Assembly: GCF_000521865.1 (NCBI RefSeq)
Contig: NZ_JAME01000001.1
Coordinates: 1 to 64,000 of the forward strand
Origin: Roseivivax isoporae LMG 25204
GTDB lineage: Bacteria; Pseudomonadota; Alphaproteobacteria; Rhodobacterales; Rhodobacteraceae
Direction: 5' to 3'
Length of the DNA stretch: 64,000 nt
Below are positions 34,509 through 61,632 of this stretch, one piece after another. Below the pieces are notes generated by a model, which saw nothing but the letters and a program-made list of their open reading frames with translations, was not told the DNA's origin and made no database searches. A program made the translations under genes and the position numbers. Numbering within the stretch: the first letter of the stretch is position 1; each line of letters starts with the position of its first letter.

Positions 34509-34529
34509 CCGGCGGTCACGCGCCGCCGG
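34509..34529. terminator. Hairpin between convergent fba and eryD
   Basis: CCGGCGG (34509-34515) and CCGCCGG (34523-34529) form a 7-bp stem with a seven-base loop. It begins 15 bases after the fba stop and overlaps the last codons of eryD, so it could stop transcription from the fba side. Confidence 0.5.
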
Positions 34530-35484: not shown

Positions 35485-35508
35485 GTTGCGTCCTCCGCTT
35501 CGCGGCGC

Positions 35509-36654: not shown

Positions 36655-36717
36655 CGTTCAGACCTCCGGTGCGGCGACCGCGGCGGGCCCGCCGGCAGGG
36701 CCGGGCGCCGGGGGGTG

Positions 36718-36740
36718 CGGCTGGCAGGCGCCGCCAGCCG
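36718..36740 (-). terminator. Stem-loop between eryC and the Fe-ADH gene
   Basis: CGGCTGGC (36718-36725) pairs with GCCAGCCG (36733-36740) around a seven-base loop, in the 100-base spacer after the eryC stop. It may attenuate expression of the alcohol dehydrogenase and eryD relative to eryABC. Confidence 0.5.
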
Positions 36741-36754
36741 GCATCCGCGGGCGG

Positions 36755-39195: not shown

Positions 39196-39198
39196 GTC

Positions 39199-44117: not shown

Positions 44118-44133
44118 CACGGAGACACCCGAG

Positions 44134-45198: not shown

Positions 45199-45293
45199 CC
45201 CCGTCCCCGTTTCGCGCAGTCCGGGCGAGGAGACCCGACGCGAAGACCCGCCGGACAACCGGCAACCACCAGACCCCTAGGGAGACCATTTAG

Positions 45294-46352: not shown

Positions 46353-47870
46353 TTAGCGCCACTCGGCCGGCGCGTCGAGCGGCAGCCCCAGTGTCACGCG
46401 TCGGCGCAGCCAGGGGCTCGCTCGGTAGCGCGGATCGCCGGTGAGCGTGTGAAGCGCGTCGAGGATACGCAGGATGTGGGCCGCGCCGATTGCGTCGCCC
46501 CACCGCAGGGGCCCGCGGGGATACCCGAGGCCGAGCGTCGTTCCGAGCTCGATGTCCCCGGGCGAGGCGATCCCCTGCTGGGCAATGTCGCAGGCGATGT
46601 TCACGATGGTGGCGAGCGTGCGCTGCGCCACGAACCCGGGGCTGTCGGCGATCACCGTGACCGGCCGGCTGGCGGCAAGCCACGCCACCACCCGGTCGCC
46701 CATGACGGCACGCGTCATGGGCGTGCCCATCACCGTCAGCCGCCCGCCCTCTATCGCAGGTCCGAAGAGCGGATCGATCGCGACGACGCGTGCGGGGTCG
46801 AGCCCGTGGGCCGCCGCTTCCGCCGTCGCGTCGCGGCCGAGGGGGGCCGCGATCACGGCGCTTGAAGCGGAGGGTTTTGCGCCCTCGTCCCGCGCCTCGG
46901 AAGGAAAAAGCGCCGCGATCCGGTCGCGCCATGGCGTATCGAGCGCGCCCAGCCAGACCTTTCCGCCGTCGCCGTTCGGCACGGCGGAGGCCGTCGGGTC
47001 CTGTCGCACACCGTTGTCATAGCGGTAGAAACCCTCGCCGGACTTGCGGCCGAAAAGCCCGGCCGCCACCCGGATCGGCAGGATCGGCGAGGGGCGGAAG
47101 CGCGGCTCCTGGTAGAATCCGTCGTAGATCAGGTCGAACACCTTCGAGGATACGTCGAGCCCGGTCAGGTCGAGGAGCGCGAAGGGCCCGAGCCGGAATC
47201 CTGCCGCTTCTTCGAGGATCGCGTCCACCTGTTGGGGCGTGGCCACGCGATCCTGGACGATGCGCAGCCCCTCGGTCGTCAGACCGCGCGCGGAATGATT
47301 CACGAGGAAGCCCGGGGCGTCTGCCGCGCGCACCGGCGCGTGCCCGAAGTCGCGCGCGTAGGCGTCGAGCCGGTCCAGAACCGCGTCCTCGCTGCGCAGC
47401 CCGCCGATCACCTCGACCACCTTCATCAGCGGCACCGGGTTGAAGAAGTGGAACCCCGCGACCCGTCCGGGACGCGCGCATCCCGCGGCGATCTCGCTCA
47501 CCGACAGGGACGAGGTGTTGGTGGCAAGGATGCAATCCGGACCCACCACCGCCTCGAGGTCACGGAATAGGGCGCGTTTGACCTCGAGGTCCTCGGCGAC
47601 TGCCTCGACCACGAGGGCGGCGCCCGCGACGTCGGAGAGATCGGTCGCGACCACGATGCGGTTGGGAGCGTCGGCCGCGAGATCGGGCTCGAGCCGCCCC
47701 TTGGCCGCGAGCTTCTCGATCATGGCGAGGGCATGGGCGCGCGCGGCCTCGGCCGCCTGGCGGCTGGCATCGAGCGCGATCACCCGGCTTCCGGCCTGCG
47801 CGAAGACCTGGACGATGCCGCGGCCCATCGTGCCGGTGCCGATGACCGCGACCGGAGAGAGGGTGGTCAT
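46353..47870 (-). CDS. 3-hydroxyacyl-CoA dehydrogenase
   Basis: A 505-residue NAD-dependent 3-hydroxyacyl-CoA dehydrogenase of the PaaH/HbdA type. NAD-binding VIGTGTMGRGI is at residues 9-19. The catalytic GFHFFNPVPLMKVVEV has His near 140 paired with Glu. A complete first 3HCDH C-domain (PGFLVNHSARG, then GPFALLDLTGLDV) is followed by a second, shorter one (SPGFVAQRTLATIV, GLGYPRGPLRWGD). No enoyl-CoA hydratase domain is attached. ATG overlaps the CoA-transferase stop (ATGA). It is the last gene of the 13-gene operon and would oxidise a hydroxyacyl-CoA produced by the preceding enzymes. Confidence 0.93.
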   Translation of the reverse strand: MTTLSPVAVIGTGTMGRGIVQVFAQAGSRVIALDASRQAAEAARAHALAMIEKLAAKGRLEPDLAADAPNRIVVATDLSDVAGAALVVEAVAEDLEVKRALFRDLEAVVGPDCILATNTSSLSVSEIAAGCARPGRVAGFHFFNPVPLMKVVEVIGGLRSEDAVLDRLDAYARDFGHAPVRAADAPGFLVNHSARGLTTEGLRIVQDRVATPQQVDAILEEAAGFRLGPFALLDLTGLDVSSKVFDLIYDGFYQEPRFRPSPILPIRVAAGLFGRKSGEGFYRYDNGVRQDPTASAVPNGDGGKVWLGALDTPWRDRIAALFPSEARDEGAKPSASSAVIAAPLGRDATAEAAAHGLDPARVVAIDPLFGPAIEGGRLTVMGTPMTRAVMGDRVVAWLAASRPVTVIADSPGFVAQRTLATIVNIACDIAQQGIASPGDIELGTTLGLGYPRGPLRWGDAIGAAHILRILDALHTLTGDPRYRASPWLRRRVTLGLPLDAPAEWR

Positions 47871-49063
47871 GGATCCGCTTCCTTTCCTGCTGTGTCGAGT
47901 GGACCGAGGACCGACGCGGTGTCGGCGCCGAGATCAGGCGCACGCGCCGCGGCGAGACGGGGATGCGCCGAGAGGCGCAGAGGGGTGCGCGGCGTCAGGA
48001 CCGGGGGCACGCCCGGATGCGCCTGCCGGGCGAACATGGGGTTCCGGGGGCTCGCACGCGCGTCCTCTGCCAAGAGCTGCGCGGCATCGCGATAGGGCGA
48101 CCAGCAGACCGACGTGCCCGCGAAGGCGTCCGCGATCTGCGTCAGGTCGCGCGCACCGGCCCAGTCCTGCACCAGCGCGGCGATCGCATGGCGTGCCCTG
48201 AAGCGCTCCGCGTCGTCGTCGAGCGGGGCGCCGAAGGCCTCGCCGATGCGATCCATGGCGGTGCCGAGCCCGGTTGCGGAGAGAAGCGCGCGCCACTGCT
48301 TGCCGGTGACGGTCGCAAGCATGAACCGCCGCCCGCACCGCGTCTCGAAATCGCGGCCGAAGCTGCCGTAGACCCAGTTCTCCTGCCGGGGGCGGGCCTC
48401 GCCCGAGAGCTCGGCCTCGGGCAGGATGCCCACATTGGCCATTGTCTCCATGGCGATGTCCGAGAGGCTGAGCGCGACGTGCTGGCCGCGCCCGGTGCGC
48501 CGACGCTCCAGTTCGGCGGCGAGGAGTCCCATTGCGAGCGTGCGTCCGGCGATCACGTCCCAGAAGGGCACTGCGTTGTTGACTGGCGAGTCGAGGCCTG
48601 CGGGGCCGGCCATCTGCGCCGCCCCGCATGCGGCGTGCACGGTATAGTCGATGGCGGTGGCGCCGTCGGGACTGCCGTCGAGCGTGACGACGATCACGTC
48701 TTGGCGGCGGTCCAGCAGCGCCTCGGGGGCCAGCGCGCCGCGCGCGGGCAGGTTCGTCACGAAGATGCCGTCGCCCTCGCAGACCAGCCGCGCGGCGGCC
48801 TCGCGTCCTTCCTCGGTGCGCAGGTCCAGCGTCACGGACTTCTTGCCGCGGTTGAGCATGGTCCAGTAGAGGCTCGCACCCTCTTGCGAGAGCGGCCAGC
48901 GCTGGTGGTCGAGCCCTCCCTCGGAAGGGTCGAGCCGGATCACCTCGGCCCCGAGCGCGGCAAGGCTCATGGTCGCGAGCGGCGCCGCGATGAAGGCCGT
49001 GGATTCGACGATCCTGAGGCCTGCGAGCGGCCCCTGGTCCGTGGGTGCGACGGCCGCTGCCAT
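47867..49063 (-). CDS. Class III (CaiB/BaiF-type) CoA-transferase
   Basis: A 398-residue family III CoA-transferase. It has GLRIVESTAFIAAPLATMSLAALGAEVIRLD at the N-terminus and the catalytic aspartate in FWDVIAGRTLAMGLLAAELERR, followed by TGRGQHVALSL. The C-terminal small domain includes SVCWSPYRDA. It would activate a carboxylic acid by moving CoA from a donor such as succinyl-CoA or acetyl-CoA. It overlaps both neighbours by four bases. Together with the ADP-forming synthetase at 58105-60276 the operon has two CoA-activating enzymes, which suggests two acids, or substrate and product, need thioesters. Confidence 0.92.
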   Translation of the reverse strand: MAAAVAPTDQGPLAGLRIVESTAFIAAPLATMSLAALGAEVIRLDPSEGGLDHQRWPLSQEGASLYWTMLNRGKKSVTLDLRTEEGREAAARLVCEGDGIFVTNLPARGALAPEALLDRRQDVIVVTLDGSPDGATAIDYTVHAACGAAQMAGPAGLDSPVNNAVPFWDVIAGRTLAMGLLAAELERRRTGRGQHVALSLSDIAMETMANVGILPEAELSGEARPRQENWVYGSFGRDFETRCGRRFMLATVTGKQWRALLSATGLGTAMDRIGEAFGAPLDDDAERFRARHAIAALVQDWAGARDLTQIADAFAGTSVCWSPYRDAAQLLAEDARASPRNPMFARQAHPGVPPVLTPRTPLRLSAHPRLAAARAPDLGADTASVLGPLDTAGKEADP

Positions 49064-49713
49064 CAGCCGCGCTCCAGCAGCGGCAGGAGTTCGGCAGATT
49101 GCGCCACCACGAAGCGGTTTCGCATGAGCGCGAGCGAAGCTTCGTGGTAGGCGGTGTTGCTGCTGGCCACCGCGTCCTCCACGACGACCGTGTAGTAGTC
49201 GTGGTGCGCCGCGCTGCGGACGGTCGATTCCACGCAACCCTCTGTATTGGCGCCAAGGCACACGACGGTGTCGATGCCGTTGGCGCGCAGGATCAGGTCG
49301 AGTGCGGTGCGGTGGAAGGCGTCGGGGCGCATCTTGTCCACGACAGGATCCTCGGGGCGCGGCGCGATGCCGTCACAGAATTCGGCGCCCCAGCTTCCGG
49401 GCAAGGTGTAGTCGGGGCTCTTGCCGTCCCGAAGTTTGAGTCGAAGCCAGGCCGGGCTGTCGCCTGCCCCGCCCGGAAGTGTGACCTGCCGGACGAACAC
49501 GGTCATGATGTCCGACGCCTGGGCGCGGCGCACGACGTCGACCATGATCGGCAGGTGCGCCTCGGCCAGCGCCATGTCGCGGCCTGCGCGGGCGAAAACG
49601 CCGTCCGGCGCGAAGAAGTCGTTCTGGATGTCGATGACCACCAGCGCCGTCTGCGCGGGGATCAGGATCTCCTCCAGTGTTTGGCGCACGATCTTGCCGT
49701 TATGATTCAACAT
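49063..49713 (-). CDS. Isochorismatase-family cysteine hydrolase (first copy)
   Basis: A 216-residue hydrolase. The catalytic triad positions are Asp in VVIDIQNDFF (near residue 28), Lys in VVDKMRPDAFHRT (near 127) and Cys in GANTEGCVEST (near 160). Members hydrolyse C-N bonds of amides, carbamates or ureido acids (RutB, biuret hydrolase, maleamate amidohydrolase). The start codon overlaps the end of the TRAP permease gene by 14 bases, and the stop overlaps the CoA-transferase start. Its position directly before a CoA-transferase suggests the freed acid is activated next. It shows only distant resemblance to the second isochorismatase in this operon. Confidence 0.9.
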   Translation of the reverse strand: MLNHNGKIVRQTLEEILIPAQTALVVIDIQNDFFAPDGVFARAGRDMALAEAHLPIMVDVVRRAQASDIMTVFVRQVTLPGGAGDSPAWLRLKLRDGKSPDYTLPGSWGAEFCDGIAPRPEDPVVDKMRPDAFHRTALDLILRANGIDTVVCLGANTEGCVESTVRSAAHHDYYTVVVEDAVASSNTAYHEASLALMRNRFVVAQSAELLPLLERG

Positions 49714-51637
49714 GCGTGTTTCCTTGATGGTTTTCCGCTTCTTCCCCGGGACGACGACGCCAGTGCCGGATCGACGTGAGCACGAGCAGCGCCGCGCCCG
49801 TTGCGGCCGCGGCAAGGCCCGGCGCGATGAGCAGAAGGGCGGCCGCAATCAGGAGCAGGCGCTCCGGCCAGGTGAGGGGATGGAACAGGAACCCCGCCAT
49901 CGCCGCGCCGATGACGACAACGCCCAAGAGCCCGGTCCCGGCGTAGAAACCGATCGCCGCCGGGTGGCCCGACATCAGGATTTCGGGGTGAAAGACGAAG
50001 ATGAACGGAATGAGGAAGGCCACGAGCGCGAGCCGCACCGCGAGAAGGGAGGTCGGCAGCCAGTCGGTCCGGGCCATGGTCGCGGCGATGAAAACCGTGG
50101 CGCAGAGCGGCGGGGTCAGCCCCGCGATGATGCTGAAATAGAAAATGAAGAAATGTGCGTTGAGTGGCTCGACACCCAGCCGCACGAGAGCGGGGGCCAC
50201 AACGGCGGCGGCGAGGAGATACGCCGCGGCGGTCGGAAGACCGGTGCCGAGGAGCATGGCCACCAGCATCGCAAGAAGTAGCGAGACCATGAGGTTCGCC
50301 TCTCCGAGCGTGATGATGGCCGAGGTGAAGGACACCCCGAGCCCGGTTGTCGAAATCATGGCGAGAAGGATCTGCGCCCCCGCGATCAGTACTGCGATCG
50401 CCACCAGCCCGACGCCCGCCTCGACCACGGTGCGACCGAGCCCCGACAGCTTGTCCCTGAGGTCCGCAACCGAGGTTGCAGCGAGTAGGTAGAATCCCAC
50501 CAGCAGCACCACCGCCCAGAACGCCGCGAGCGCGGGCGAATACCCCTGCACCATCAGCCCGATGAGGGCAACGAGCGACGCCAGAACCGGCCCCGCGCCG
50601 CGCAAGGTCAACGTGTCGGACAGCCGGGGCATCTCGGCGGGGTTGACGGGGCGGTAGCCGAGCCGCCGGGATTCGAAGTGGATCCCCGCGAGACAGCCCG
50701 CGAAGTAGAGGATCGCGGGGATCAGGCCCGCCGCCATGATCGTCAGGTACGGCACGCCGAGAAGCTCGGCCATGATGAAGGCGCCTGCGCCCATGATGGG
50801 CGGCATGATCTGCCCGCCGGTCGACGCCACGGCCTCGACCGCGGCGGCAAAAGCGGGGCGGTAGCCGAGCCGCGTCATCAGCGGGATCGTGAACGCGCCG
50901 GTGGTCGCGACGTTCGCGGCCGCCGACCCCGACACGCTGCCGAACATGGCGCTCGAGATCGTCGCGACCTTGGCGCCGCCGCCCGTACTGCGTCCGCCGA
51001 TGCGCATGGCGATGTCCATGAAGGTCTGTCCGCCTCCGGTGCGCAACAGGAAGACGCCGTAGATCACGAAAAGCGCGATCACGTTCGCGGAAATGCCGGT
51101 GACCATCCCGTAGAGACCGCGGTTCGACAGGTACAGCACCTCTGCCGCAAGCCGCGGGTCGAGACCGCGATGGGCGACGGCCTGCGGCAGGTGCGGGCCG
51201 AGCAGCGCGTAGGCGAGACCAGCAAGCCCGAGAAGCGGGATGGTGAGACCGATCACCCTTCGGCATCCCTCGAGGACGAGCGCGGTCGTGACGATGGCCA
51301 AAATGAAATCCGCCTCCGTCATTCGGAAGGTGAAGCCCATCACGCGGTCGTAGCTTAGGATGACGTGCGCGGTGCCGAGCGCGGCGCCCAGGATCAGCAG
51401 GCCGTCGAGGACCCCCAGCGGCCGCTCCCGGGCACTGTCCCGGTCGGCGCCGAAGAGCAGGAACGCCAGCATCAGCGTCCCGCCCACGTGGGCGGCGCGC
51501 TGTATCAGGTCCGGGAATGCACCGAACGCGCCGGTATAGAGATGGAAGGCCACCATGACGCCGCTCAGCGCCACGATACCGCCGCGGCGCACGCGCAGGG
51601 CGGCGCGTGGAGTGTCGGTGTCGGCGTCACGTGTCAT
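49700..51637 (-). CDS. TRAP transporter fused small and large membrane subunits (TAXI type)
   Basis: A 645-residue permease with about 17-18 hydrophobic helices. The first four (residues 20-140) correspond to the DctQ-like part, the rest to the 12-helix DctM-like part, with GGGQTFMDIAMRIGGRSTGGGAKVAT, SGSAAANVATTGAFTIP and GLPTAAAYLLAAA. Fused 4TM/12TM proteins of this type work with TAXI-family binding proteins, encoded just upstream (51719-52717). It is a secondary, ion-driven importer for a small carboxylate. The C-terminal tail (RRRPGEEAENHQ) overlaps the isochorismatase start. Confidence 0.93.
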   Translation of the reverse strand: MTRDADTDTPRAALRVRRGGIVALSGVMVAFHLYTGAFGAFPDLIQRAAHVGGTLMLAFLLFGADRDSARERPLGVLDGLLILGAALGTAHVILSYDRVMGFTFRMTEADFILAIVTTALVLEGCRRVIGLTIPLLGLAGLAYALLGPHLPQAVAHRGLDPRLAAEVLYLSNRGLYGMVTGISANVIALFVIYGVFLLRTGGGQTFMDIAMRIGGRSTGGGAKVATISSAMFGSVSGSAAANVATTGAFTIPLMTRLGYRPAFAAAVEAVASTGGQIMPPIMGAGAFIMAELLGVPYLTIMAAGLIPAILYFAGCLAGIHFESRRLGYRPVNPAEMPRLSDTLTLRGAGPVLASLVALIGLMVQGYSPALAAFWAVVLLVGFYLLAATSVADLRDKLSGLGRTVVEAGVGLVAIAVLIAGAQILLAMISTTGLGVSFTSAIITLGEANLMVSLLLAMLVAMLLGTGLPTAAAYLLAAAVVAPALVRLGVEPLNAHFFIFYFSIIAGLTPPLCATVFIAATMARTDWLPTSLLAVRLALVAFLIPFIFVFHPEILMSGHPAAIGFYAGTGLLGVVVIGAAMAGFLFHPLTWPERLLLIAAALLLIAPGLAAAATGAALLVLTSIRHWRRRPGEEAENHQGNTHVES

Positions 51638-51718
51638 GCTGGACTCCGCCTTGCGCCGCGGCCTTCGCGGCGATGGAGCGCACCCGCCCCGCGGGACGGG
51701 TGCGTCGAAGGACTGGGC

Positions 51719-52717
51719 TTACTGCATCTCGGGCGGGATCAGCCGGTCGGGGATCTCATGGCCCCCTTCGCGCAGGTAGCGCACGACGCCCGGGTGCAGC
51801 GGCGTCTGGGCCCGCTCGACAGTCTGCTGCGCTATGTCGAGCCCCGCAACCGCGCCGTAGGATTCGGCCACCTTGTCGACGTTCTCCGCCACGGTACGGA
51901 AGATGTTATAGGCAGTATCTTCGGGCATGTCCTTGGTGGTGCCCATGGTGATGAACACAACGCGCAGGTTCATGGGCCCGGTGTCGTACGGCGTGTCCTC
52001 GACCGCCATGAAGTCGAAGTGCGGATACTCCGCCTGCACCGCCGCAATGTCCTCCTCGGTCCAGTCGAGCAGGCGGATGTCGCGCGCGGTCTGCGCGTTC
52101 AGGATCGCGCTGTCCGGCGCTGCGGGTGGGCCGGCCTTGGTAAAGCCCACGATGCGGCGGTCCTGAAACGCGGTGACGGCGTCGCTCATGCCGGTACGGA
52201 ACCAGTCGGGCTCAACGCCCATGGCGCCGAGAGCCTCGAACGACGCGCGCTCGGTCCCGGACCCGCGGCCGCCGCCGTTGAAGGCCTGCCCGTCGAGGTC
52301 GGCGACCGACCGGACGTCCGAATCCGCGGCCACCACGAACAGGTAGGCGAGGGGGGTCGTGGTCCAGAAAGTGCGGAAATCGGGGTTCGGCTGCCCCTCA
52401 AACGGGCCGAGCCCCTTGTAGTACTCGTAGAGGTCCGGCTCTGCCATCATGCCCCAGTCGACCTGGCCCTCGGACAGGCGGCGCATGTTGTCGAGCCCGC
52501 CGCCGGTCTCGACGACCGAGACGTTCACGTCGTCCAGCGTGCCGTTCAGCAGCTGGGCGACCGCGACGTGGTAGGCGTAGAGCGACGACGCCTGGCTCGT
52601 GGCGCCTATGGACAGCTGCGCGGTGTCCGCGAGCGCAGGGGTGGCGCCGGCGACGCACGCTGCGCTTCCCAGCCCGGCGCAGAGCGCGCGCACGGATTTA
52701 AGTGACATGAGTCCCAT
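51719..52717 (-). CDS. TAXI-family TRAP transporter substrate-binding protein
   Basis: A 332-residue periplasmic receptor. The signal peptide ends near residue 31 (GATPALA). The mature part shows the TAXI hallmarks LSIGATSQASSLYAYHVAVAQLL, VETGGGLDNMRRLSEGQVDWGM, FNGGGRGSGTERASFEALGAMG and, near the end, RTPLHPGVVRYLRE-like QTPLHPGVVRYL. GGGAGG lies seven bases before ATG 52717. It delivers ligand to the fused permease downstream (81-base spacer). TAXI ligands known so far are mostly small acids such as glutamate or 2-oxoglutarate; the ligand here is unknown. Confidence 0.92.
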   Translation of the reverse strand: MGLMSLKSVRALCAGLGSAACVAGATPALADTAQLSIGATSQASSLYAYHVAVAQLLNGTLDDVNVSVVETGGGLDNMRRLSEGQVDWGMMAEPDLYEYYKGLGPFEGQPNPDFRTFWTTTPLAYLFVVAADSDVRSVADLDGQAFNGGGRGSGTERASFEALGAMGVEPDWFRTGMSDAVTAFQDRRIVGFTKAGPPAAPDSAILNAQTARDIRLLDWTEEDIAAVQAEYPHFDFMAVEDTPYDTGPMNLRVVFITMGTTKDMPEDTAYNIFRTVAENVDKVAESYGAVAGLDIAQQTVERAQTPLHPGVVRYLREGGHEIPDRLIPPEMQ

Positions 52718-52775
52718 CGTTTTTCCTCCCTCGGGGATGTCTTGGCCCGCGCTTGGCGGACCCTCGGGCTGCCGA

Positions 52776-53474
52776 TCAGCCGGTCGCGGCCCGCGCGGTG
52801 CCGGAAAATCGGCGGTCGAGTTCGCGCGTCACATCGGCATGACGTTCGACATCGGCGAATTTCATGTCCATGTCGAAGAGGCTGGCCTTGTGCGCCGAGG
52901 GACTGCGGTCGCCGACCGCGTCCTCCACCACGATCACGCGGAAATTGTGCGAGAATGCGTCGGTCACGGCGGCGCGCACGCATCCGCTGGTGGAAATGCC
53001 GACCACCACGAGCGTGTCGACGCGGTCATAGCGCAGGAAGGATTCGAGCGGCGTCTCGAAGAAGCACGACGGCTTGTTCTTCTCGACGACGACGTCGGCC
53101 TCGGTGGGCGCGTATGCCTCGGGCCATTCGTCGGCGCGCGGGTCTCGGGTGTAGCCGTGGCTCTCGGCGACAGAAAGCTTCAGGTTCCAGATGCCCCGGC
53201 GGACCGGGTGATTCCGATTGTCGCGGCGGCTGTAGTAGACTGGCAGACCCAGTCGCCGGAACTGGGCAGTGAGGTCGGTCAGCGCCTGCATCAGTTCCGG
53301 CATCTCGCGGCCGCACATGTCGTAGGCGGGATCGACGAACATCCACGTGGTGTCGATGTTCAGCAGCGCCACGCGCTCCCCAAAGCCGATCCGCTCGCCG
53401 AAGCCGCCCTTGCGGTAGGTCGCCAGCTCGGCGTCCGGGACGTAACCCTGCCATTTCTCCAGCTTGTCGCTCAT
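52776..53474 (-). CDS. Isochorismatase-family amidohydrolase, N-carbamoylsarcosine amidase-like
   Basis: A 232-residue cysteine hydrolase. The N-terminus with YRKGGFGERIGFGERVALLNID is typical of N-carbamoylsarcosine amidohydrolase and maleamate amidohydrolase (NicF). Catalytic residues: Asp in LLNIDTTW (near 40), Lys in VEKNKPSCFFETPL (near 133) and Cys in GISTSGCVRAAV (near 167). The segment FRVIVVEDAVGDRS and KASLFDMDMKFADV completes the family pattern. It overlaps the first lyase gene by four bases. It likely releases ammonia (and CO2, if a carbamoyl group is cleaved) from the imported substrate or an intermediate. Confidence 0.9.
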   Translation of the reverse strand: MSDKLEKWQGYVPDAELATYRKGGFGERIGFGERVALLNIDTTWMFVDPAYDMCGREMPELMQALTDLTAQFRRLGLPVYYSRRDNRNHPVRRGIWNLKLSVAESHGYTRDPRADEWPEAYAPTEADVVVEKNKPSCFFETPLESFLRYDRVDTLVVVGISTSGCVRAAVTDAFSHNFRVIVVEDAVGDRSPSAHKASLFDMDMKFADVERHADVTRELDRRFSGTARAATG

Positions 53475-54409: not shown

Positions 54410-55329
54410 CGGTCGGTCTCCTGTCCGGCGGGGGCGGTGCGGTACTTCCGCTCGAGGTGTTCCGGGTCGAGGAAACGCCGTTCGAGCGCGTAGACGTGGT
54501 CCATCCCCACCAGGCGGTGGGTATCCGCGAAGTCGGCGAAGAGATCCGGGTCCGGGCCCGTCCCGTCGCGCGCGCGGATCGTGTCCAGCGCGCGGCGCAT
54601 GGCGTGGATCGAGGCGAGAAGCAGCGACACGGGCAGGCTGACCCGTGCAACACCCATCTTCTGCAGCTCGGTGAATGTCAGCCCGGCTGGCGTCCGGCCG
54701 CCCTCGACCATGTTGACGGCCAGCGGGCCGCCGATCCCGTCCACCAGCCGGGCGACGGTGTCGCGGCGGTCCACCCCGTCAACGAAAACCATGGTGGCAC
54801 CGGCCGCGAAATAGGTGCGGGCGCGGGCGATGGTGGCATCGAGCCCCTCGACCGCCAGCGCGTCGGTGCGTGCGTTGATGACGAAGTCGGGATCGCGACG
54901 GGCCTCGGCGGCGGCCTCGATCTTGCCGGCCATCTCGGCCTCGGACACGACCTCCTTGCCGTCGAGATGACCGCAGCGCTTGGGCATAACCTGGTCCTCG
55001 AGGTTTATGCCGGCAGCACCTGCCGCTTCGATCGCGCGCACGGTGTACCAGGTGTTTACGGCATTCCCGTAGCCCGTGTCGCCGTCGGCCATGAAGGGGA
55101 TCTCGACCGCACCCGCGATCGCCACGGTGCGCTCGGCCATCTCGCGCATGGACAGGATGCTGGCATCGGGCAGGCCCATGCTCGCGGCCGAGATGCCGAG
55201 CCCGCTGGCCTGAACCGCCTCGAACCCCGCTTCCTCGATCAGCCGGGCCGAGAGCGGATCGTGGGCTCCGGGCATGATCAGGATCTCCGGCGCGTCGATC
55301 AGGCGCCTCAGTCGTGTCGTCTTGTTCAT
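54406..55329 (-). CDS. Isocitrate lyase/PEP mutase family enzyme (second copy)
   Basis: A 307-residue member of the same superfamily. It has LIMPGAHDPLSARLIEEAGFEAVQASG at the N-terminus, DGDTGYGNAVNTWYTV near 90, EDQVMPKRCGH with the conserved cysteine near 120, and NARTDALAVEG near 150, then NMVEGGRTP. It has KRCGH where the downstream copy has KKCGH, and the C-terminal lids differ, so the two probably act on different acids or form a heteromer. ATG 55329 with a GAAGGGGGT region upstream. It follows the ABC binding-protein gene by 56 bases. Confidence 0.92.
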   Translation of the reverse strand: MNKTTRLRRLIDAPEILIMPGAHDPLSARLIEEAGFEAVQASGLGISAASMGLPDASILSMREMAERTVAIAGAVEIPFMADGDTGYGNAVNTWYTVRAIEAAGAAGINLEDQVMPKRCGHLDGKEVVSEAEMAGKIEAAAEARRDPDFVINARTDALAVEGLDATIARARTYFAAGATMVFVDGVDRRDTVARLVDGIGGPLAVNMVEGGRTPAGLTFTELQKMGVARVSLPVSLLLASIHAMRRALDTIRARDGTGPDPDLFADFADTHRLVGMDHVYALERRFLDPEHLERKYRTAPAGQETDR

Positions 55330-55385
55330 GGAACCCCCTTCTTGGGAGGCATCCGCGGGTGGCTCGTCCCGCGGATGCGCGGGCC

Positions 55386-56429
55386 TCAGTTCGAGGCCGT
55401 GTCGAAGAGTTCGTTGGTGTAGGCGGAATCGATGTCGAGGCCCTCGAACTTCTCGTCCGAGAACGTCTCGAGGAAGGTCACGACGCGCTCCATCTGCTCG
55501 CGCGTGATCTCGGGCGAGGTCGGGTAGGCCGGCACGACAGAGGTCCATGCGCGGTCGAACAGCTCCTTGTCGAACCGCTCGAAATAGGCTTCGTAAACCA
55601 TGTCGCGCGCCTCTTCCGTGGTGTCGGGGTCGTGCATGGCCTCCTGCGCGCGCTGCAGTGCCGCCATCATCCGCCGCGCGAGATCGGGGTTCTCGTCCAG
55701 CCATGCGCGGCGGGTGTTCACCGAGATGTAGAGGTGGCCGTCAAGATCGGGCAAGGCGCCCGCGGCGGTGTTGAACAGCATGAAGCCGTCGAAATCCGCG
55801 ATGGCCGTGTCGCTCGTCGGGTTCGACAGCGTGAAAGCGTCGATCCGGTCGCGCGAGAAGGCCGCGAGGATCTCGTTCGAGCCGCCGACGAAATTGACCG
55901 TCGCGTCGCGCTCGGGATCGAGACCTGCCTCGGTCAGCATGTAGAGCGCCAGCTGGTGCGTGCCGCTGCCCGCGCCGGTCACGCCGATGCGCGCGCCTTC
56001 GAGTGCCGCGAGGCGGTCCTCGATGCTGCTGTCCTCGGTCAGCCCCTTTTCCTCGGCATAGGCGCCGCGCATCACGACGTTCGATGCGTATTGCGTCATC
56101 AGCGCGCCGGCGATGACCGCGTTCGTGTCCTTCGACGCAGCGCGCAGCGCCGCAGAGGTCGAGCCGATGTAGACGTCCATGTCGCCGCCCAGAACCGCGG
56201 CCATGGACGTGCCGCCGCCGGCCTTGAAGACCTGCAGGTTGGGGTCAATGTTTTCGTCCGCGAAATAGCCCATCTGCTCGGCAACGTAGACCGGCAGGTA
56301 GAGCATCCCGACGCTTGGCATGGCGAAGTTGATGCGGTCCTGTGCCAAGGCCGCGCCGGCTGCCAGCGACAGTGCGCCCGCGGCAGCGACACGCACTGCT
56401 CCCTTCCCGAATTTTCCGAAGAACGTCAT
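55386..56429 (-). CDS. NMT1/SsuA-type ABC transporter substrate-binding protein
   Basis: A 347-residue periplasmic protein with signal peptide (VRVAAAGALSLAAGAALAQ, cleavage near residue 29). The mature part shows the NMT1/THI5-like pattern LYLPVYVAEQMGYFADENID, GGGTSMAAVLGGDMDVYIGS, GARIGVTGAGSGTHQLALYML and FVGGSNEILAAFSRDRIDAF. It pairs with the permease and ATPase encoded just upstream and is set off from them by a 26-base palindrome. Such systems import sulfonates, thiamine precursors, nitrate or aromatic carboxylates. The lyase and amidase neighbours suggest an organic acid or amide. Confidence 0.92.
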   Translation of the reverse strand: MTFFGKFGKGAVRVAAAGALSLAAGAALAQDRINFAMPSVGMLYLPVYVAEQMGYFADENIDPNLQVFKAGGGTSMAAVLGGDMDVYIGSTSAALRAASKDTNAVIAGALMTQYASNVVMRGAYAEEKGLTEDSSIEDRLAALEGARIGVTGAGSGTHQLALYMLTEAGLDPERDATVNFVGGSNEILAAFSRDRIDAFTLSNPTSDTAIADFDGFMLFNTAAGALPDLDGHLYISVNTRRAWLDENPDLARRMMAALQRAQEAMHDPDTTEEARDMVYEAYFERFDKELFDRAWTSVVPAYPTSPEITREQMERVVTFLETFSDEKFEGLDIDSAYTNELFDTASN

Positions 56430-56480
56430 GGTGTTATTCCTCCCTTGGTTGCAATGCGGTCCATCCTCCCGACCGCGGGA

Positions 56481-56506
56481 CGCCCCACCGCCGCGGCGGT
56501 GGGGCG
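56481..56506. repeat. Perfect 26-base palindrome between permease and binding-protein genes
   Basis: CGCCCCACCGCCG (56481-56493) is followed directly by its complement CGGCGGTGGGGCG (56494-56506). It lies just past the permease stop (56514). In RNA it would form a very stable hairpin with a tight loop, likely shielding or attenuating the message between the membrane genes and the binding-protein gene. Confidence 0.65.
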
Positions 56507-56513
56507 GGTTTCG

Positions 56514-57299
56514 TCAGATCGACATCTCGCGCTTCGAGTTCGTCTCGCGCCAGGGCATCGCCCGGATCTCGATGAGCTTGACGGCCGCGTTCAGGCAGAA
56601 GGCCATGGCCATGATGCCGATGAGCGCGGTGAAGACGCCGGTCGTGTCGAACTGGCCGGCGGAGTCGGCCAGCAGGTAGCCAAGACCCCGGTTCGAGGCG
56701 ATGAGCTCGCCCACGATGGCGCCGATCAGGGCGTAGGGGACAGACAGGCGCAACCCGGTGAACACCCAGGTCACCGCCGAGGGCAGCACGACCTTGAAGA
56801 GCACGTGCCGCTCGTTCGCTCCCATGAGCCGCAGGATCGCGATCTGTTCGCGGCTGACCGCGCGCACGCCCGTGTAGGTGTTCAGGAACACCAGAAAGAA
56901 GACGATGGTCGCGGTCAGCAGGATCTTCATGTCGATCCCGATGCCGAACCAAAGCACGAAAAGCGGCGCGAGCGCGACCTTGGGCAGGCTGTAGAACATC
57001 ATGATGAAAGGATCGAGGACCTCGGCCACCAGCTGCGCGCGGCCCAGCCAGACGCCGATCACCATCCCGATCAGCCCGCCGAGCAGGAAGCCCGAGAGGG
57101 CCTCGAGCAGGGTGATCGCCCCGTGGTAGAAGATCTTTCCCGAGAGCGTCCATTCCCAGAACATCTGGGCGATGGCCGAGGGGCGGCTGATGAAGAATTC
57201 CGAGGCCAGTCGGCCCGAGGAGAGTTCCCAGCCGATGATGACGAAGGCGAGGAACATGGCTCGCAGGACCCAGATGCGCGTCTTGCTCAGCTCTTCCAT
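56514..57299 (-). CDS. SsuC/TauC-type ABC transporter permease
   Basis: A 261-residue permease with six hydrophobic helices: WVLRAMFLAFVIIGWEL, LEALSGFLLGGLIGMVIGVWLG, PFIMMFYSLPKVALAPLFVLWFG and others. The EAA loop is RLMGANERHVLFKVVLPSAVTWVFTGL. These are the SsuC/TauC/ThiX features. ATG 57299 is two bases after the ATPase stop. It forms the channel of the importer with the ATPase upstream and the binding protein downstream. Confidence 0.92.
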   Translation of the reverse strand: MEELSKTRIWVLRAMFLAFVIIGWELSSGRLASEFFISRPSAIAQMFWEWTLSGKIFYHGAITLLEALSGFLLGGLIGMVIGVWLGRAQLVAEVLDPFIMMFYSLPKVALAPLFVLWFGIGIDMKILLTATIVFFLVFLNTYTGVRAVSREQIAILRLMGANERHVLFKVVLPSAVTWVFTGLRLSVPYALIGAIVGELIASNRGLGYLLADSAGQFDTTGVFTALIGIMAMAFCLNAAVKLIEIRAMPWRETNSKREMSI

Positions 57300-57301
57300 G
57301 G

Positions 57302-58105
57302 TCAGTCCCCCATTCCGACAGCGGGCGCCAGGACGTCCCACAACGTTGCCGTGATCTCCTGGTAATCGCGGTCCTTGCGCAGCTGCAGGATGTCGCGGTC
57401 GGGCGGCAGCGGCACGTCGACCACCCGCTCGATGGTGCCGGGGCGTCCGGTGAAGACCACGCAGCGGTCGCCGATCGCCACCGCCTCGTCGAGGTCGTGG
57501 GTCACGAACATCACCGTCTTCCCGAGCCGTCGGCAGAGCGCGCGTATCTCGATTTGCATGCGCATCCGCAGCATCGCGTCGAGCGCGGCGAACGGCTCGT
57601 CCATCAGCAGCGTCTCGGGATCGTAGGCGAGGAGCCGCGCCAGCGCGCAGCGCTTGCGCATGCCTCCGGAGAGCTGGTTGGGGTAGCTGCGGCCGAAGCC
57701 GGTAAGCCCGACGGTCTCCATCAGTTCCTCGACGCGGGCAACGACCTGCGCCTTGGGCAGCCCCTTGATCTCGAGCGGGATCGCGATGTTGCCGATCACG
57801 TCGCGCCAGGGCAGCAGGTGATCGCTCTGCGTCATGTAGCCCACGGAATTGTTGTAGGGCTTCACCGGTGCTCCGCGGTAGATCACCTCGCCCTCGGTGG
57901 CCTCGAAGAGCCCTGCGGCCATGTTGAGCAGCGTGGACTTGCCGCAACCCGATGGACCAACCAGCGTGAGGATCTCGCCCTCGCGCACCTTCAGGTCGAT
58001 GTCCCTGACCGCCTGGAGCGGTTCTCCCTTCACCGTGAAGCGCTTGCCCACGCCCCGGAATTCGATCAGGGGCACGTGGCCCTTCGATCCCGCTTGCTCG
58101 GTCAT
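57302..58105 (-). CDS. SsuB/TauB-type ABC transporter ATP-binding protein
   Basis: A 267-residue ATPase. Walker A is GPSGCGKST, the Q-loop GYMTQSDHLLPW, the signature LSGGMRKRCALARLL, Walker B TLLMDEPFAALD and the H-loop FVTHDLDEAV. These identify the nitrate/sulfonate/taurine subfamily. ATG 58105 overlaps the acyl-CoA synthetase stop, setting the start; the open frame continues upstream only as shadow of that gene. Confidence 0.94.
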   Translation of the reverse strand: MTEQAGSKGHVPLIEFRGVGKRFTVKGEPLQAVRDIDLKVREGEILTLVGPSGCGKSTLLNMAAGLFEATEGEVIYRGAPVKPYNNSVGYMTQSDHLLPWRDVIGNIAIPLEIKGLPKAQVVARVEELMETVGLTGFGRSYPNQLSGGMRKRCALARLLAYDPETLLMDEPFAALDAMLRMRMQIEIRALCRRLGKTVMFVTHDLDEAVAIGDRCVVFTGRPGTIERVVDVPLPPDRDILQLRKDRDYQEITATLWDVLAPAVGMGD

Positions 58106-60276
58106 CAGTCCTCCCTTTCCGGCTCCCGTCCGGGCGGTGCATCCTCCCCCTCCTCCTCCGAAGGGGAGCCGCGCCGCACCGCAAGCGCATCCAGGGCACG
58201 CACTCCGCGGCCCTCTTCCAGCATCAGAAGCGGGTTGATCTCCGCCTCTGCCACGTCGTCGCAAAGCGCGAGACGCGACAGTCGCGCGACCGCGTCGGCC
58301 AGCGCGTCGAGATCGCCCCGCGGCCGGTTGCGGAAACCCCGGGCAACACGCAGGAAAGACACCTCGTTGAGCATCCGCCGCGCTTCCTCGGTCGTCACGG
58401 GGGCCACGCGGATGGCAGTGTCGCGCAGAGCCTCCGCGAGAACGCCGCCCGCGCCCAGCATAACCACCGGGCCAAGTTGCGGGTCACGGCGGAAGCCCAC
58501 GAGCGCCTCGGCGATGCCCGTTTCCATCCGCTGCACGAGCACGCCGCGAAGGCGCGCCCTGGGATGCGCCGCGCGTTGAGTCGCCATCAGCCGGTCGAAG
58601 GCCGTCTCCACCGCCGCGCGGTCGGTCAGGCCCAGGATCAGACCGCCAGTGTCGGACTTGTGCGGGATGTCCGGTGACACGATCTTGAGTGCCACCGGAT
58701 CGCTGCCGAGGCGCGCGAAGATCTCGCCTGCCGCCGTGGCGCTGTCGGCAAGGCCTCCCTCGGGCCCGGAGATGCCGAGAAGGTCGCAAAGCCGGCGGGC
58801 CTCGATCTCGTCGAGGGCCGGATCGTCGGCCGCGTTGAAAAGGGCGCGGACCGAACGAGCGAGATGTGCGTCGGGTGCAGCTTCGGCTTCGGGCGGACAG
58901 CGCGTGAGCCGCGCACGCAACCCTTCGGCGCAGGACTCCGCCGTCCGGAACACGGCCAGCCCTTCCTCTGTCAGCAGGAGGCGTGATTCGTCGGCGGCCG
59001 GCACGAGGTAGACCCCGAGGGGTTTCGCGCCCTGCGCGAAGCCACGCAGCGGCGCCACGGCGAGTTCGGGATGGAACTGCGACGACGAGCCGATGACCAT
59101 GGCGATCGCGTCGACATCGTCGCTCGCCCGAAGGGCGTCAAGGACGGCGCGCACAAGCGCCGGCCGCGTGCCGGCCAGCGTCAGGTCGATCAGACCGGCC
59201 GGGCTTCCCGTCACGCCATGTTCAGCGAGGATCGCGTGGACCTCGGACAGGGGCGGCGCCATCTCGAGCCCGAGCGATGCGAGCGCGTCCACCACCATCG
59301 CGCCACCGCCGCCCGTGGTCGTCACGACGGCCACGCGCCGGCCCTTCGGAGCGCCCGATCCGAGAAACAGCGGCGGCGCCTCGAACAGGGTCTCGAGGAT
59401 GCGCACGCGGGCGATCCCGAGATGTGCGAGGAGCGCGTCCGCCACGGCGTCGCTTCCAGCGAGCGCGCCGGTATGGGTCGCGGCTAGCGCCTGTCCGGCC
59501 TCGGACCGACCGAGCTTGTAGGCGAGGACGGGCTTGCCGGTGGCCTGGGCGGCGCGGGCAAAACGCGCCAATGCCGCCCGGTCCTTGATCGACTCGAGGA
59601 ACAGCAGGATCGCCTCGCAGCGCGGGTCCTGCAGCATGACCTCGCCGATCTCGCCCACGGTCAGGTCGATCTCGTTGCCGACCGAGACGAGGCTCGAAAA
59701 CCCTATGCCGCGCGCCGCGCCCTGCGACAGCAGAGCGCCGATCATGCTGCCGCTCTGCGAGATGACGCCGTACCGGCCGCGCGGCAGGGCATCCATCTCG
59801 AGCGTCGCGTTGGCGCTGCAGGTGAAGCCCTCGGTGTCGATGATCCCGATGGAGTTGGGCCCCAGCAGTCGCACGCCTCCCTCGCGCGCCGCCCGGGCGA
59901 CCGCCTCCTGCCGGTCGGCGCCGGTCGCGCCTGCCTCGGCGAAGCCGTCGCTCAGGATCGTGGCGCAGCGGATGCCTCGCGCGGCACAGTCGCGCACGGC
60001 CTGCGCCACCGCGTCGGCGGCCACGAGGATGAAGGCATGATCGATGCCGTCGGGCGCGTCCGCGAGCGACGCACAGGCCGCGAGGCCATCGATCGTTTCG
60101 ACACCCGGGTTGATGGGGAAGATCTGCCCCGCATAGCCGTGTTTCCGAAGGTAGCGCAGCGGGCGTGCCGTGGTCTTGGCCGGGTTCGAGGACGCCCCTA
60201 CAAGCGCCACGGAGCGCGGGGAGAACAACGCCTGCGCCAGCCTTGTATCCGGCGTCCTGGTCCCGGCCAGCGTCAT
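58105..60276 (-). CDS. ADP-forming acyl-CoA synthetase (acetate-CoA ligase family)
   Basis: A 723-residue fused enzyme. The CoA-binding domain is at residues 10-145 (SVALVGASSNPAKTTARPLRYL). The succinyl-CoA-ligase-like domains follow, 150-460 (SQSGSMIGALLSQGAARGIGF, then ATHTGALAGSDA with the likely phospho-His). An ATP-grasp domain (about 490-700) has VALKIVSPDIPHKSDTGG and AEINPLL near the end. It makes an acyl-CoA from acid, CoA and ATP, giving ADP and phosphate, reversibly. The C-terminal acidic tail (SPSEEEGEDAPPG) is unusual. The gene overlaps its neighbours by four and one bases, with the acyl-CoA dehydrogenase upstream, so the thioester is probably its substrate. Confidence 0.92.
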   Translation of the reverse strand: MTLAGTRTPDTRLAQALFSPRSVALVGASSNPAKTTARPLRYLRKHGYAGQIFPINPGVETIDGLAACASLADAPDGIDHAFILVAADAVAQAVRDCAARGIRCATILSDGFAEAGATGADRQEAVARAAREGGVRLLGPNSIGIIDTEGFTCSANATLEMDALPRGRYGVISQSGSMIGALLSQGAARGIGFSSLVSVGNEIDLTVGEIGEVMLQDPRCEAILLFLESIKDRAALARFARAAQATGKPVLAYKLGRSEAGQALAATHTGALAGSDAVADALLAHLGIARVRILETLFEAPPLFLGSGAPKGRRVAVVTTTGGGGAMVVDALASLGLEMAPPLSEVHAILAEHGVTGSPAGLIDLTLAGTRPALVRAVLDALRASDDVDAIAMVIGSSSQFHPELAVAPLRGFAQGAKPLGVYLVPAADESRLLLTEEGLAVFRTAESCAEGLRARLTRCPPEAEAAPDAHLARSVRALFNAADDPALDEIEARRLCDLLGISGPEGGLADSATAAGEIFARLGSDPVALKIVSPDIPHKSDTGGLILGLTDRAAVETAFDRLMATQRAAHPRARLRGVLVQRMETGIAEALVGFRRDPQLGPVVMLGAGGVLAEALRDTAIRVAPVTTEEARRMLNEVSFLRVARGFRNRPRGDLDALADAVARLSRLALCDDVAEAEINPLLMLEEGRGVRALDALAVRRGSPSEEEGEDAPPGREPERED

Positions 60277-61433
60277 GAGCGCGGCCCGCGTTGCGAAAAG
60301 CGGGTGCCGAACACGCCTTCGGCGATGCGGTTGCGCATCATCTCGAGCGATCCGCCGGCGATCTGCCAGCCGCGCGTCTTGCGGAAGCAGTATTCGACGA
60401 GAGTCTCCTGACAGTAGCCCATGCCACCCATGACTTGCATCGCCTCGTTGCTGGCGCGAAAGCCGACCTCGTTGCACATGAGCTTGGCAACCGCGGTGTG
60501 CTGGGCGTCGGGCAGCCCGTGGTCGGCGCTGACCGCCGCCCGGTAGAGCAGGAGCTGCGCTGCCTCCATCTGTGCGTGGATGTCGGCAAACTTCCATTGC
60601 AGGCCCTGGAAGTCGCTGAGCGTGCGGCCGAACTGGCGTCGCTGCGCGGCGTAGTCGCGCGCGGTGTTGAAGGCATGCCGCCCCACGGCGAGTGCACGGG
60701 CGGAGTTGCCGATCCGCTCGGCGTTGAAGCCAGTGATCTGTTTCTTGAAGCCCCCGGGGCCCAGCAACAGGTTCTCTTCCGGGATGAACACGTCATCGAA
60801 GAAGAGCGGGCACCACGTCTCGCCGTTCATGTAGCTGGCTGGTGTGCCGAGGGAAAAGCCCTGCATGCCGCGCTCGACGATGACCGAACCGATCTGGCCC
60901 ACGCCCTCCCCGAAGCGGCAGTAGACGAGGAACACGTTTGCCTCGGCCGAGTGGCTGGTGAAGACCTTTCCACCCTTCAGCAGCCACCCCTGGCCGTCGG
61001 GTGCGGGGCGGGCCGTGGTCCTGAGGTCCGTCACTGCCGAGCCGGCCTCGGCCTCGGTCATGCCGAGCCCGATGACCGTCTCTCCTGCGAGAAGCCCGGA
61101 CAGGTAGCGTGCCTTCTGGTCGGGCGTGGCGTATTCGGCAAAGGTGCGGATCGGTCCGAAATTTCCGGCCTGGATGACATCGGCGGATTTCGGGCAGACC
61201 AGCGCCACCGCCTCGATGGCGATGACGGCGTCCATCAGCGTTCCGCCCTGCCCGCCGTCCGCCTCGGGAATGGTGATGCCGAGCAGTCCCATCTTCGCCG
61301 CCTCGCGCGCCACGTCGAACGGAAAGCTGGGGGCCCGGGCGCGTTCCAGCGCCCCGCCGGCCAGGGTCCGTTCGGCCCACCCGCTTACGGAATCACGGAA
61401 GAGGCGTTGCTCCTGCGTCAGTTCGAAGTCCAT
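60273..61433 (-). CDS. Acyl-CoA dehydrogenase family protein
   Basis: A 386-residue FAD enzyme. It has FELTQEQRLFRDSVSGWAER at the N-terminus, the FAD/substrate site GLGMTEAEAGSAVTDL near 125, and the C-terminal MQVMGGMGYCQETLVEYCFR with GWQIAGGSLEMMRNRIAEGVFG. At the YEG position where medium-chain enzymes have the catalytic Glu it has AGG, as in many FadE-like members with the base elsewhere. It is the first gene of the 13-gene operon, divergent from a GntR regulator. It introduces a double bond into the activated acid. No enoyl-CoA hydratase gene is in the operon. Confidence 0.93.
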   Translation of the reverse strand: MDFELTQEQRLFRDSVSGWAERTLAGGALERARAPSFPFDVAREAAKMGLLGITIPEADGGQGGTLMDAVIAIEAVALVCPKSADVIQAGNFGPIRTFAEYATPDQKARYLSGLLAGETVIGLGMTEAEAGSAVTDLRTTARPAPDGQGWLLKGGKVFTSHSAEANVFLVYCRFGEGVGQIGSVIVERGMQGFSLGTPASYMNGETWCPLFFDDVFIPEENLLLGPGGFKKQITGFNAERIGNSARALAVGRHAFNTARDYAAQRRQFGRTLSDFQGLQWKFADIHAQMEAAQLLLYRAAVSADHGLPDAQHTAVAKLMCNEVGFRASNEAMQVMGGMGYCQETLVEYCFRKTRGWQIAGGSLEMMRNRIAEGVFGTRFSQRGPRS

Positions 61434-61632
61434 GTGCGCGTCGTCACTCCAGTCAGGTCTTAATGTCAGGTTGACTACATATTAATACTTTTGCAATAAA
61501 TTCTTTGCGGCCGCCGCCGAAGACTGCAACGAGGGCGGGCTTGACGCTCGGAGACGAGGATCTCTTTACTGCCCCGATGCCGGCGCCGACTGCGCCAAAC
61601 GGGTGCGAGACAGGAAGTGGGGCCGGTCGTCC
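61434..61632. promoter_or_regulatory. Divergent control region of the CoA-linked operon and gntR
   Basis: An AT-rich island (61455-61505). It has a direct repeat GTCAGGT (61452-61458 and 61465-61471), a TATTAATA dyad near 61480-61487 and TTGACT at 61471-61476, which could be a plus-strand -35 box with a poor -10 about 17 bases on. The dyad is a good candidate GntR/HutC operator, between the acyl-CoA dehydrogenase operon and the regulator. Confidence 0.5.

Follow-up and report, generated by a model that had tools for sequence, protein, structure and literature searches.

The end part of nicotinate fermentation in Eubacterium barkeri comprises a dimethylmaleate hydratase, DmdAB, and a dimethylmalate lyase, Dml. 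In anaerobic naphthalene degradation, as described in the excerpt of PMC11659651, the intramolecular coenzyme A (CoA) transferase ThnP serves the acyl-CoA dehydrogenase ThnO on an unsymmetrical diacid. Here we describe an operon of Roseivivax isoporae LMG 25204 (GCF_000521865.1) consisting of 13 linked genes at positions 46353-61433 of the window, the window being the 64,000-nucleotide stretch at positions 1-64,000 of the forward strand of contig NZ_JAME01000001.1. The enzymes it encodes are of known kinds; their combination has no described pathway in the literature searched, and among the titles and abstract openings listed for lyase-amidase sets, imidases, hematinic acid and dimethylmaleate, none describes this gene set. 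The operon is confirmed as a rare set of genes that is conserved as a unit. Tentatively, and with confidence falling slightly short of even, we read it from its encoded proteins as a catabolic operon for a substituted C4-dicarboxylic acid that would be supplied as its half-amide (or as the amide that arises when a cyclic imide or lactam is opened).

All 13 genes lie on the minus strand and are read from 61433 down to 46353. They are listed below in that order, with the evidence for each assignment in brackets; the short names ACAD, ACS, LY1, LY2, NCS, ISO2, MCT and HAD are labels coined in this analysis.

60273..61433, minus strand: ACAD, acyl-CoA dehydrogenase (family scans, alignment)
58105..60276, minus strand: ACS, NDP-forming acyl-CoA synthetase (family scans)
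57302..58105, minus strand: ABC importer ATPase (sequence; 68-91% identity in nine NCS loci)
56514..57299, minus strand: ABC importer permease (sequence)
55386..56429, minus strand: NMT1-type solute-binding protein (family scans, fold model)
54406..55329, minus strand: LY1, C-C lyase of the ICL/PEP-mutase superfamily, KRCGH (family scan, alignment)
53471..54409, minus strand: LY2, C-C lyase of the ICL/PEP-mutase superfamily, KKCGH (family scan, alignment)
52776..53474, minus strand: NCS, isochorismatase-fold amidohydrolase on the N-carbamoylsarcosine amidase/NicF side (structure-sequence matches, residues)
51719..52717, minus strand: TAXI solute-binding protein of a TRAP transporter (family scan, over the cut-off)
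49700..51637, minus strand: fused TRAP permease (sequence; homologues adjoin TAXI in relatives)
49063..49713, minus strand: ISO2, second isochorismatase-fold amidohydrolase, on the RutB/biuret hydrolase side (family scan)
47867..49063, minus strand: MCT, Mct-like family III CoA transferase (family scan, residue alignment)
46353..47870, minus strand: HAD, 3-hydroxyacyl-CoA dehydrogenase, PaaH-like (family scans)

A sequence-only reading of this DNA had proposed a 13-gene set here, and all of its genes are present on one strand. Family profile scans bear out the protein types it gave for the 10 of 13 proteins that they covered; the types of the two permeases (ABC and TRAP) and of the ABC ATPase come from sequence reading.

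Conservation of the gene set

A search of genome contigs with NCS as the query returned 53 loci, which belong to related species and are not independent; several of the stretches are short, and operon genes were scored as present or absent within the contig stretch examined for each locus. In Pararhodobacter sp. SW119 (L014) all 13 genes follow a divergent GntR gene in unchanged order, at 43-83% identity, HAD being the least conserved member (43%). The complete set recurs in rearranged form in two further genomes (L022 with L091; L038 with L093), G394 and G396 holding the full set, which upholds the proposal of one conserved unit. Stretches of L013, L016 and L027 carry 8-10 of the 13 genes. 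That of L013 comprises TRAP, ISO2, MCT, HAD, ACS, the ABC genes, NMT1 and NCS, and rearranged blocks with LY1, LY2, NMT1, the ABC genes, NCS, TAXI and others make up L016, L022, L027 and L038, L039 being a short piece of the same type. MCT adjoins TRAP-ISO2 in L091, L093 and L098, as well as in L097, whose contig starts inside the TRAP gene. The rarity of the system is apparent from LY1: of 390 genomes of the order, 4 have a match at E<=1e-70, the present genome included.

For comparison, we used 38 control stretches, some of them short, at hand-picked positions in the genomes of 13 relatives and in this one. The presence of NCS in the 53 loci is given by construction. Homologues of LY2 occur near NCS in 19 of 53 loci against none of 38 controls, those of ISO2 in 11, NMT1 in 8, ACS in 6 and GntR in 13, again against none; for LY1 the count by score, 18 of 53 against 0 of 38, is inflated by cross-matching between LY1 and LY2. 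Orthologues proper number 5 of 53 for LY1 (57-71% identity) and 18 of 53 for LY2 (56-72%). The differences do not reach p 0.05 for MCT (5 against 0), TAXI (5 against 0), HAD (4 against 0), ACAD (6 against 2) and TRAP (5 against 1). Families not represented among the genes of the window were selected once the loci had been viewed; among these, AtuA (12 against 0), DUF4387 (13 against 0) and asparaginase (10 against 0) accompany NCS. Since the loci are related and several families were picked in this way, the p-values serve only as a guide.

Some neighbours of NCS homologues are of interest in themselves. DUF4387 and AtuA-family proteins stand near NCS at L030 917-2595 and in further loci, where they may stand in for a hydratase; our literature search found no paper mentioning DUF4387. 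A pair of HMG-CoA-lyase-like and CaiB-type transferase proteins, recognised by eye and by homology to annotated L010 genes, is located near NCS in L042, L047, L055 and L064, and possibly represents a CoA-dependent alternative to the LY lyases. Proteins of the arylmalonate-decarboxylase/maleate-isomerase fold lie near the MCT homologues of L012 (11912-12682) and, by eye, L095 (1064-1825).

Active-site residues and the proposed route

The residues D41, K132, C165 and R190 of NCS are kept in 53 of 53 loci. NCS thus carries the Asp-Lys-Cys triad of N-carbamoylsarcosine amidase/NicF-type amidohydrolases, and in the alignment its R190 falls on the GDR-motif Arg of N-carbamoylsarcosine amidase and NicF. 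Its fold is that of isochorismatases, and the cut-offs for RutB and biuret hydrolase are far from reached. These residues fit a carboxylate-bearing amide and appear compatible with a half-amide and a ureido acid alike; the earlier suggestion of an amide- or carbamoyl-bearing acid as the substrate is supported. The triad of ISO2 (D28, K127, C160) is intact in 11 of 11 relatives. The best named matches of ISO2 include biuret hydrolase and RutB, and its scores fall below the NCBIfam cut-offs for both (89.6 against 377.95 for TIGR03614, RutB; 82 against 370 for NF050097, biuret hydrolase). In the Elioraea-type loci L023, L026, L042 and L047, a PuuE/polysaccharide-deacetylase-type protein is encoded directly behind NCS. 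Its best solved match is a polysaccharide deacetylase, so we dropped it as a proven imidase; that it could be a cyclic imide hydrolase is only a hint.

Both lyases keep the E. coli PrpB residues D58, D85, D87, E115, K121, C123, H125, R158 and N210; we take the KxCGH motif and the residues at these PrpB positions to be catalytic. The proposal that LY1 and LY2 are of the kind that splits substituted malates agrees with this set. E188 of PrpB is Asp in LY1, and in the pocket at positions 234-241 the LYPLSAFR of PrpB corresponds to IYPNSLTR in LY2 and SLPVSLLL in LY1, which differs most. The identity to E. coli PrpB is 34-35%, and the scores of 255.5 and 299 bits do not reach the cut-off of 354.4 for TIGR02317 (prpB). 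Petal death protein is the best solved match of both lyases, which also match the sequence of 3fa3 (2,3-dimethylmalate lyase). The lyase Cys is kept in 17 of the 18 loci that cover that position of LY2.

The sequence-only reading counted two CoA-activating enzymes, one of which (47867-49063) proves to be Mct-like. MCT matches Mct over residues 10-386 of 398 (NCBIfam, 2.4e-112) and the two solved Mct enzymes at 1.5e-106 and 1.5e-105. In the excerpt of PMC9813914, Asp165 of Mct is named as catalytic, Arg47 and Tyr136 as serving the free carboxylate, and R75, R104, L43 and F101 as belonging to the sealed tunnel. Six of these seven residues are kept in MCT (D169, R55, Y140, R82, R108 and L51, corresponding to D165, R47, Y136, R75, R104 and L43), and F101 is replaced by L105; the alignment uses a 21-residue offset between the Mct chain and the published numbering, which was deduced from the residues falling in place. 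Asp165 and Arg47 are likewise named in the excerpt of PMC9196870, along with Arg314, which MCT does not keep. Being Mct-like, MCT is probably an intramolecular CoA transferase that moves CoA within a diacid. Together with the precedent of ThnP, this makes it likely that the pathway passes through the CoA thioester of an unsymmetrical, probably unsaturated diacid.

As regards the remaining enzymes of the CoA branch, ACAD has a Glu, E239, at the helix-G position of the base known from isovaleryl-CoA dehydrogenase, and Gly at the site occupied by Glu in the solved enzymes aligned with it. E239 is kept in 6 of 6 relatives, and the score against 3-sulfinopropanoyl-CoA desulfinase (NF042439) is 254.6 with a cut-off of 600. 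ACS reaches no equivalog cut-off, and HAD passes that of a 3-hydroxyacyl-CoA dehydrogenase subfamily. The fold model of the NMT1 protein places it in the ThiY/TauA/SsuA class and indicates no ligand. The first match of the TAXI protein model (mean pLDDT 76) is 4ddd, followed by TAXI proteins that bind glutamate; with 23-25% identity, the latter are too distant for their ligand to be carried over.

On the half-amide reading, the two importers would bring in the acid, and NCS, joined by ISO2 for a second amide or a regioisomer, would release ammonia from the amide and leave a diacid. Water may be added to the substituted maleate by a LeuCD-type hydratase, whose genes adjoin the operon in some relatives and lie on a different contig in this genome, and LY1 and LY2 would cleave the alkylmalate to give a 2-oxo acid together with a short acid, both the substrate and the direction being presumed. 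In the CoA branch, for which order and substrate are equally presumptive, ACS would make an acyl-CoA, ACAD desaturate it and MCT shift CoA between the carboxyls; mesaconyl-CoA hydratase of the ethylmalonyl-CoA pathway acting in trans, or the enoyl-CoA hydratase of relatives, would continue, and HAD would oxidise the hydroxyacyl-CoA. An unsymmetrically substituted diacid, both carboxyls of which need handling, would fit well with paired amidases and lyases and a CoA shuttle.

The absence of an enoyl-CoA hydratase and a thiolase, noted from the sequence earlier, is true of 46353-61433 and does not extend to the operon family. A 257-residue protein of the enoyl-CoA-hydratase family adjoins MCT in L091, L093 and L097, the L097 copy scoring 337 bits, just under a subfamily cut-off of 355 bits; L097 also encodes a thiolase-domain protein, over its cut-off, and an HMG-CoA-synthase-like protein, below its own. 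In view of the hydratase gene beside MCT in these three relatives, the claim that the lyases must replace a thiolase for want of a hydratase was too strong. The present genome encodes Ccr (610.8 bits, over the cut-off) and, 12 kb from it, a gene of the mesaconyl-CoA-hydratase family (47.2 bits, cut-off 26.5), with ethylmalonyl-CoA-mutase-like and CitE/malyl-CoA-lyase-like proteins, identified by eye, between or beside them; mesaconyl-C1-CoA-type products could therefore be consumed in trans. Of the seven genomes whose cluster includes MCT, six have Ccr, against 1 of 7 others searched.

LeuC and LeuD adjoin operon genes in L099, which belongs to the genome of L014, and in L091 and L097; no LeuCD was found beside operon genes in G393 or G396. 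LeuC searches of eight genomes, chosen for carrying NCS, recovered 16 copies. Seven genomes each have a single high-scoring one (779-802 bits), nine further copies are secondary (577-667 bits), and none was found in G393. All nine secondary copies lie near an isochorismatase-fold hydrolase, an LY-type lyase or both in stretches of 11-20 kb, against none of the seven highest-scoring copies (one-sided Fisher 8.7e-5; the housekeeping LeuC is defined here as the best-scoring copy, and the control stretch L157 ends in a HyuA-like piece). In a tree of the 16 copies, the high-scoring ones of five genomes form one clade (100/100), and the operon-linked copy of L099 shares a group (97/98) with the accessory LeuC of this genome and the copies of L144, L145 and L149; the joining of L091 and L097 to the accessory clade is weak (82/89). 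The missing hydratase is thus not foreign to the system: relatives encode LeuCD, an enoyl-CoA hydratase or both next to operon genes, and this genome has its accessory LeuC in a sister cluster. Because LeuCD-type partners adjoin such lyases, the nicotinate-type hydratase and lyase, earlier invoked as a partial precedent, now form a stronger one.

The accessory LeuCD of this genome is part of a sister cluster on contig C15 (G000, L146 1671-14715), together with a lyase (43% identity to LY2), an isochorismatase (38% to ISO2), HyuA and HyuB, a tautomerase/SnoaL protein, an FAD protein, a GntR gene and TRAP genes; the copy scanned for the HyuA assignment is that of L147. Clusters of this type recur in two other genomes, G390 and G391 (also L147 and L148), and all four lyases checked, those of L146-L149, carry KRCGH. 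The C15 cluster appears to follow, independently, the same scheme of ring opening, amide removal, hydration and cleavage. A general link of aconitase-type enzymes to close NCS homologues was considered and dropped, and the AcnA, MmgE/PrpD and LeuCD found beside lyases in plasmid loci accompany NCS-like proteins of only 31-38% identity.

A bolder extension, which we regard as improbable and speculative, is that the operon, together with sister clusters that combine HyuAB, isochorismatase, LeuCD and lyase, constitutes an undescribed aerobic route for substituted maleimides and five-ring lactams, proceeding by ring opening, half-amide hydrolysis, dialkylmaleate hydration and malate-type cleavage. 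A main natural source would be oxidised tetrapyrroles (chlorophyll, haem and bilins) by way of hematinic acid and methylethylmaleimide, and the CoA branch with its shuttle transferase would deal with unsymmetrical diacids.

Evidence against the half-amide reading and its alternatives

Several observations weigh against the half-amide reading. The score of MCT, 375.9 bits, is well below the equivalog cut-off of 725 for TIGR04253, and HAD is without a clear step for a mesaconyl-type acid. The pattern of MCT and Ccr is confounded by phylogeny, and the metagenome-assembled genome G395 has MCT without Ccr. NCS scores higher with N-carbamoylsarcosine amidohydrolases (115.8 and 105.8 bits) than with 3ot4 (95.5), an entry that, like 3uao, we take to be the maleamate amidohydrolase NicF. 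Aconitase-type hydratases are not enriched near NCS (1 of 53 against 1 of 38), and the hydratase link rests on LeuCD in three relatives and on sister clusters, the LeuCD of this genome being on another contig. Finally, 31 of the 53 NCS loci, Roseomonas/Falsiroseomonas-type loci among them, have none of LY1, LY2, ISO2, MCT, ACS, ACAD and HAD in the stretch (at least 40% identity, >90 bits), which indicates that NCS works in other settings too and is not tied to this operon alone.

The alternative that survives best, although we consider it unlikely, is that two pathways share one operon. A CoA module (NMT1 importer, ACS, ACAD, MCT and HAD) and a lyase module (TAXI-TRAP, ISO2, LY1 and LY2) would then act on two related substrates and have NCS and the regulator in common. 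Indeed, the parts are separable: L012 (Jannaschia seohaensis) has GntR, MFS, ACS, the ABC genes, NMT1, NCS and MCT, and its stretch contains neither a lyase nor ISO2 nor TAXI; 11 loci, mostly labelled beta-proteobacterial, have NCS and LY2 (six also ISO2) and no match to ACS, ACAD or MCT; and in Ramlibacter, homologues of ACAD (62%), ACS (46%), MCT (42%) and the ABC ATPase (43%) lie together in L096, apart from the NCS-ISO2-LY2 locus L055. However, L014 keeps all 13 genes in order, and the blocks of G394 and G396 are mixed (TAXI-TRAP-ISO2-MCT; ATPase-permease-NMT1-LY2; NCS-ACAD-ACS-HAD), tying both modules together.

Less probable still is that the nitrogen belongs to a carbamoyl (ureido) group, the substrate being a hydantoin- or pyrimidine-derived N-carbamoyl acid that would yield an amino acid in the manner of creatinine breakdown. 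NCS has its best solved matches in N-carbamoylsarcosine amidohydrolases, which points this way, as do the named matches of ISO2, the HyuAB genes adjoining the sister lyase and a hydantoinase-type gene near the MCT homologue of L095. Against it, the 13 genes include no transaminase, ammonia-lyase or amino-acid oxidase, and the substrates of the lyase and Mct families are hydroxy or unsaturated diacids that carry no amine.

Ordinary utilisation of a C5 diacid (mesaconate, itaconate or citramalate) with incidental amidases is very improbable: MCT, ACAD and the ethylmalonyl-CoA pathway genes suit mesaconyl-CoA, and CitE/RipC-like (3 of 53) and HMG-CoA-lyase-like proteins (4 of 53, named through an annotated L010 gene) occur near NCS, but the amidase triads are intact in all relatives examined, and other amide or imide hydrolases, of families partly chosen post hoc, accompany NCS in 26 of 53 loci, compared with 1 of 38 controls.

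Gene junctions, surroundings and comparison with known systems

The genes had been described as overlapping almost throughout, which holds for 7 of the 12 junctions (1-14 nucleotides); one further junction is a gap of 2 nucleotides, and four are gaps of 56, 58, 81 and 84 nucleotides. These four flank exactly the two solute-binding-protein genes, NMT1 and TAXI, and all of them fold into hairpins, with no T run after any. The hairpins around the TAXI gene stand out less from shuffled sequences (z-scores of -1.0 and -1.6) than the two listed below. We infer that the hairpins are expression-tuning elements around the binding-protein genes rather than operon ends. The features accompanying the operon are:

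61603..62397, plus strand: GntR/HutC-type regulator, divergent (profile match below all cut-offs)
62429..63604, plus strand: MFS-type transporter behind the GntR gene (by eye)
56430..56513, minus strand: hairpin without a T run in the gap before the NMT1 gene (z-score -2.8 against shuffles)
55330..55385, minus strand: hairpin without a T run in the gap after the NMT1 gene (z-score -3.2 against shuffles)

The regulator-transporter pair is kept in L012, at 85% identity for GntR and 75% for MFS. A promoter and terminator scan returned 0 promoter-like sites (1.1 expected) and 6 terminator-like sites (6.3 expected). The guanine-cytosine content is 68.6% in the operon and 70.7% in the rest of the window. 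To the left, at 30190-46241, sugar/polyol-type genes read by eye appear unrelated, and the sugar-type ABC importer among them runs in the opposite direction. At and beyond the right end of the window, L005 (3614-15517, contig C1) holds a cluster with two TRZ/ATZ-type amidohydrolases and an oligopeptide-type ABC importer, as well as racemase-like, flavin-reductase-like and cytosine-deaminase-like proteins recognised by eye and without an NCBIfam match; it is perhaps another N-heterocycle pathway.

The proposed sequence of half-amide, diacid, alkylmalate, cleavage and CoA-shuttle branch offers a testable frame for gene sets of Alpha- and Betaproteobacteria. It suggests a role for the second LeuCD copies in these genomes, and brings an Mct-like CoA transferase, a type known chiefly from CO2 fixation, into a catabolic setting. 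Were the maleimide extension true, it would touch on the bacterial fate of the end products of tetrapyrrole oxidation.

With the end part of nicotinate fermentation the system shares the pairing of a LeuCD-type hydratase with a KxCGH lyase, which acts on an alkylmalate in the known pathway and would do so here; it differs in its amidases and CoA branch and in that LeuCD is not in the operon. Nicotinate hydroxylase, enamidase and mutase are absent from the 13 genes, the rest of the genome not having been searched for them. NCS resembles N-carbamoylsarcosine amidase and NicF in its fold, its Asp-Lys-Cys triad and the GDR-motif Arg, but is distant from both (95-116 bits) and has no pyridine-ring genes in its operon. 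The lyases have the catalytic residues of E. coli PrpB, with petal death protein as the best solved match; unlike PrpB, to which they are 34-35% identical, they remain below the prpB cut-off and have altered pocket residues, most of all in LY1. MCT is akin to Mct of the 3-hydroxypropionate bicycle in its near full-length match and six of seven named residues, whereas it falls under the equivalog cut-off, has Leu in place of F101 and would work in another pathway. As far as the excerpt on ThnP and ThnO goes, ThnP is a family I transferase with another substrate, whereas MCT belongs to family III; the two systems would nonetheless have in common an intramolecular CoA transferase that works with an acyl-CoA dehydrogenase on an unsymmetrical diacid.

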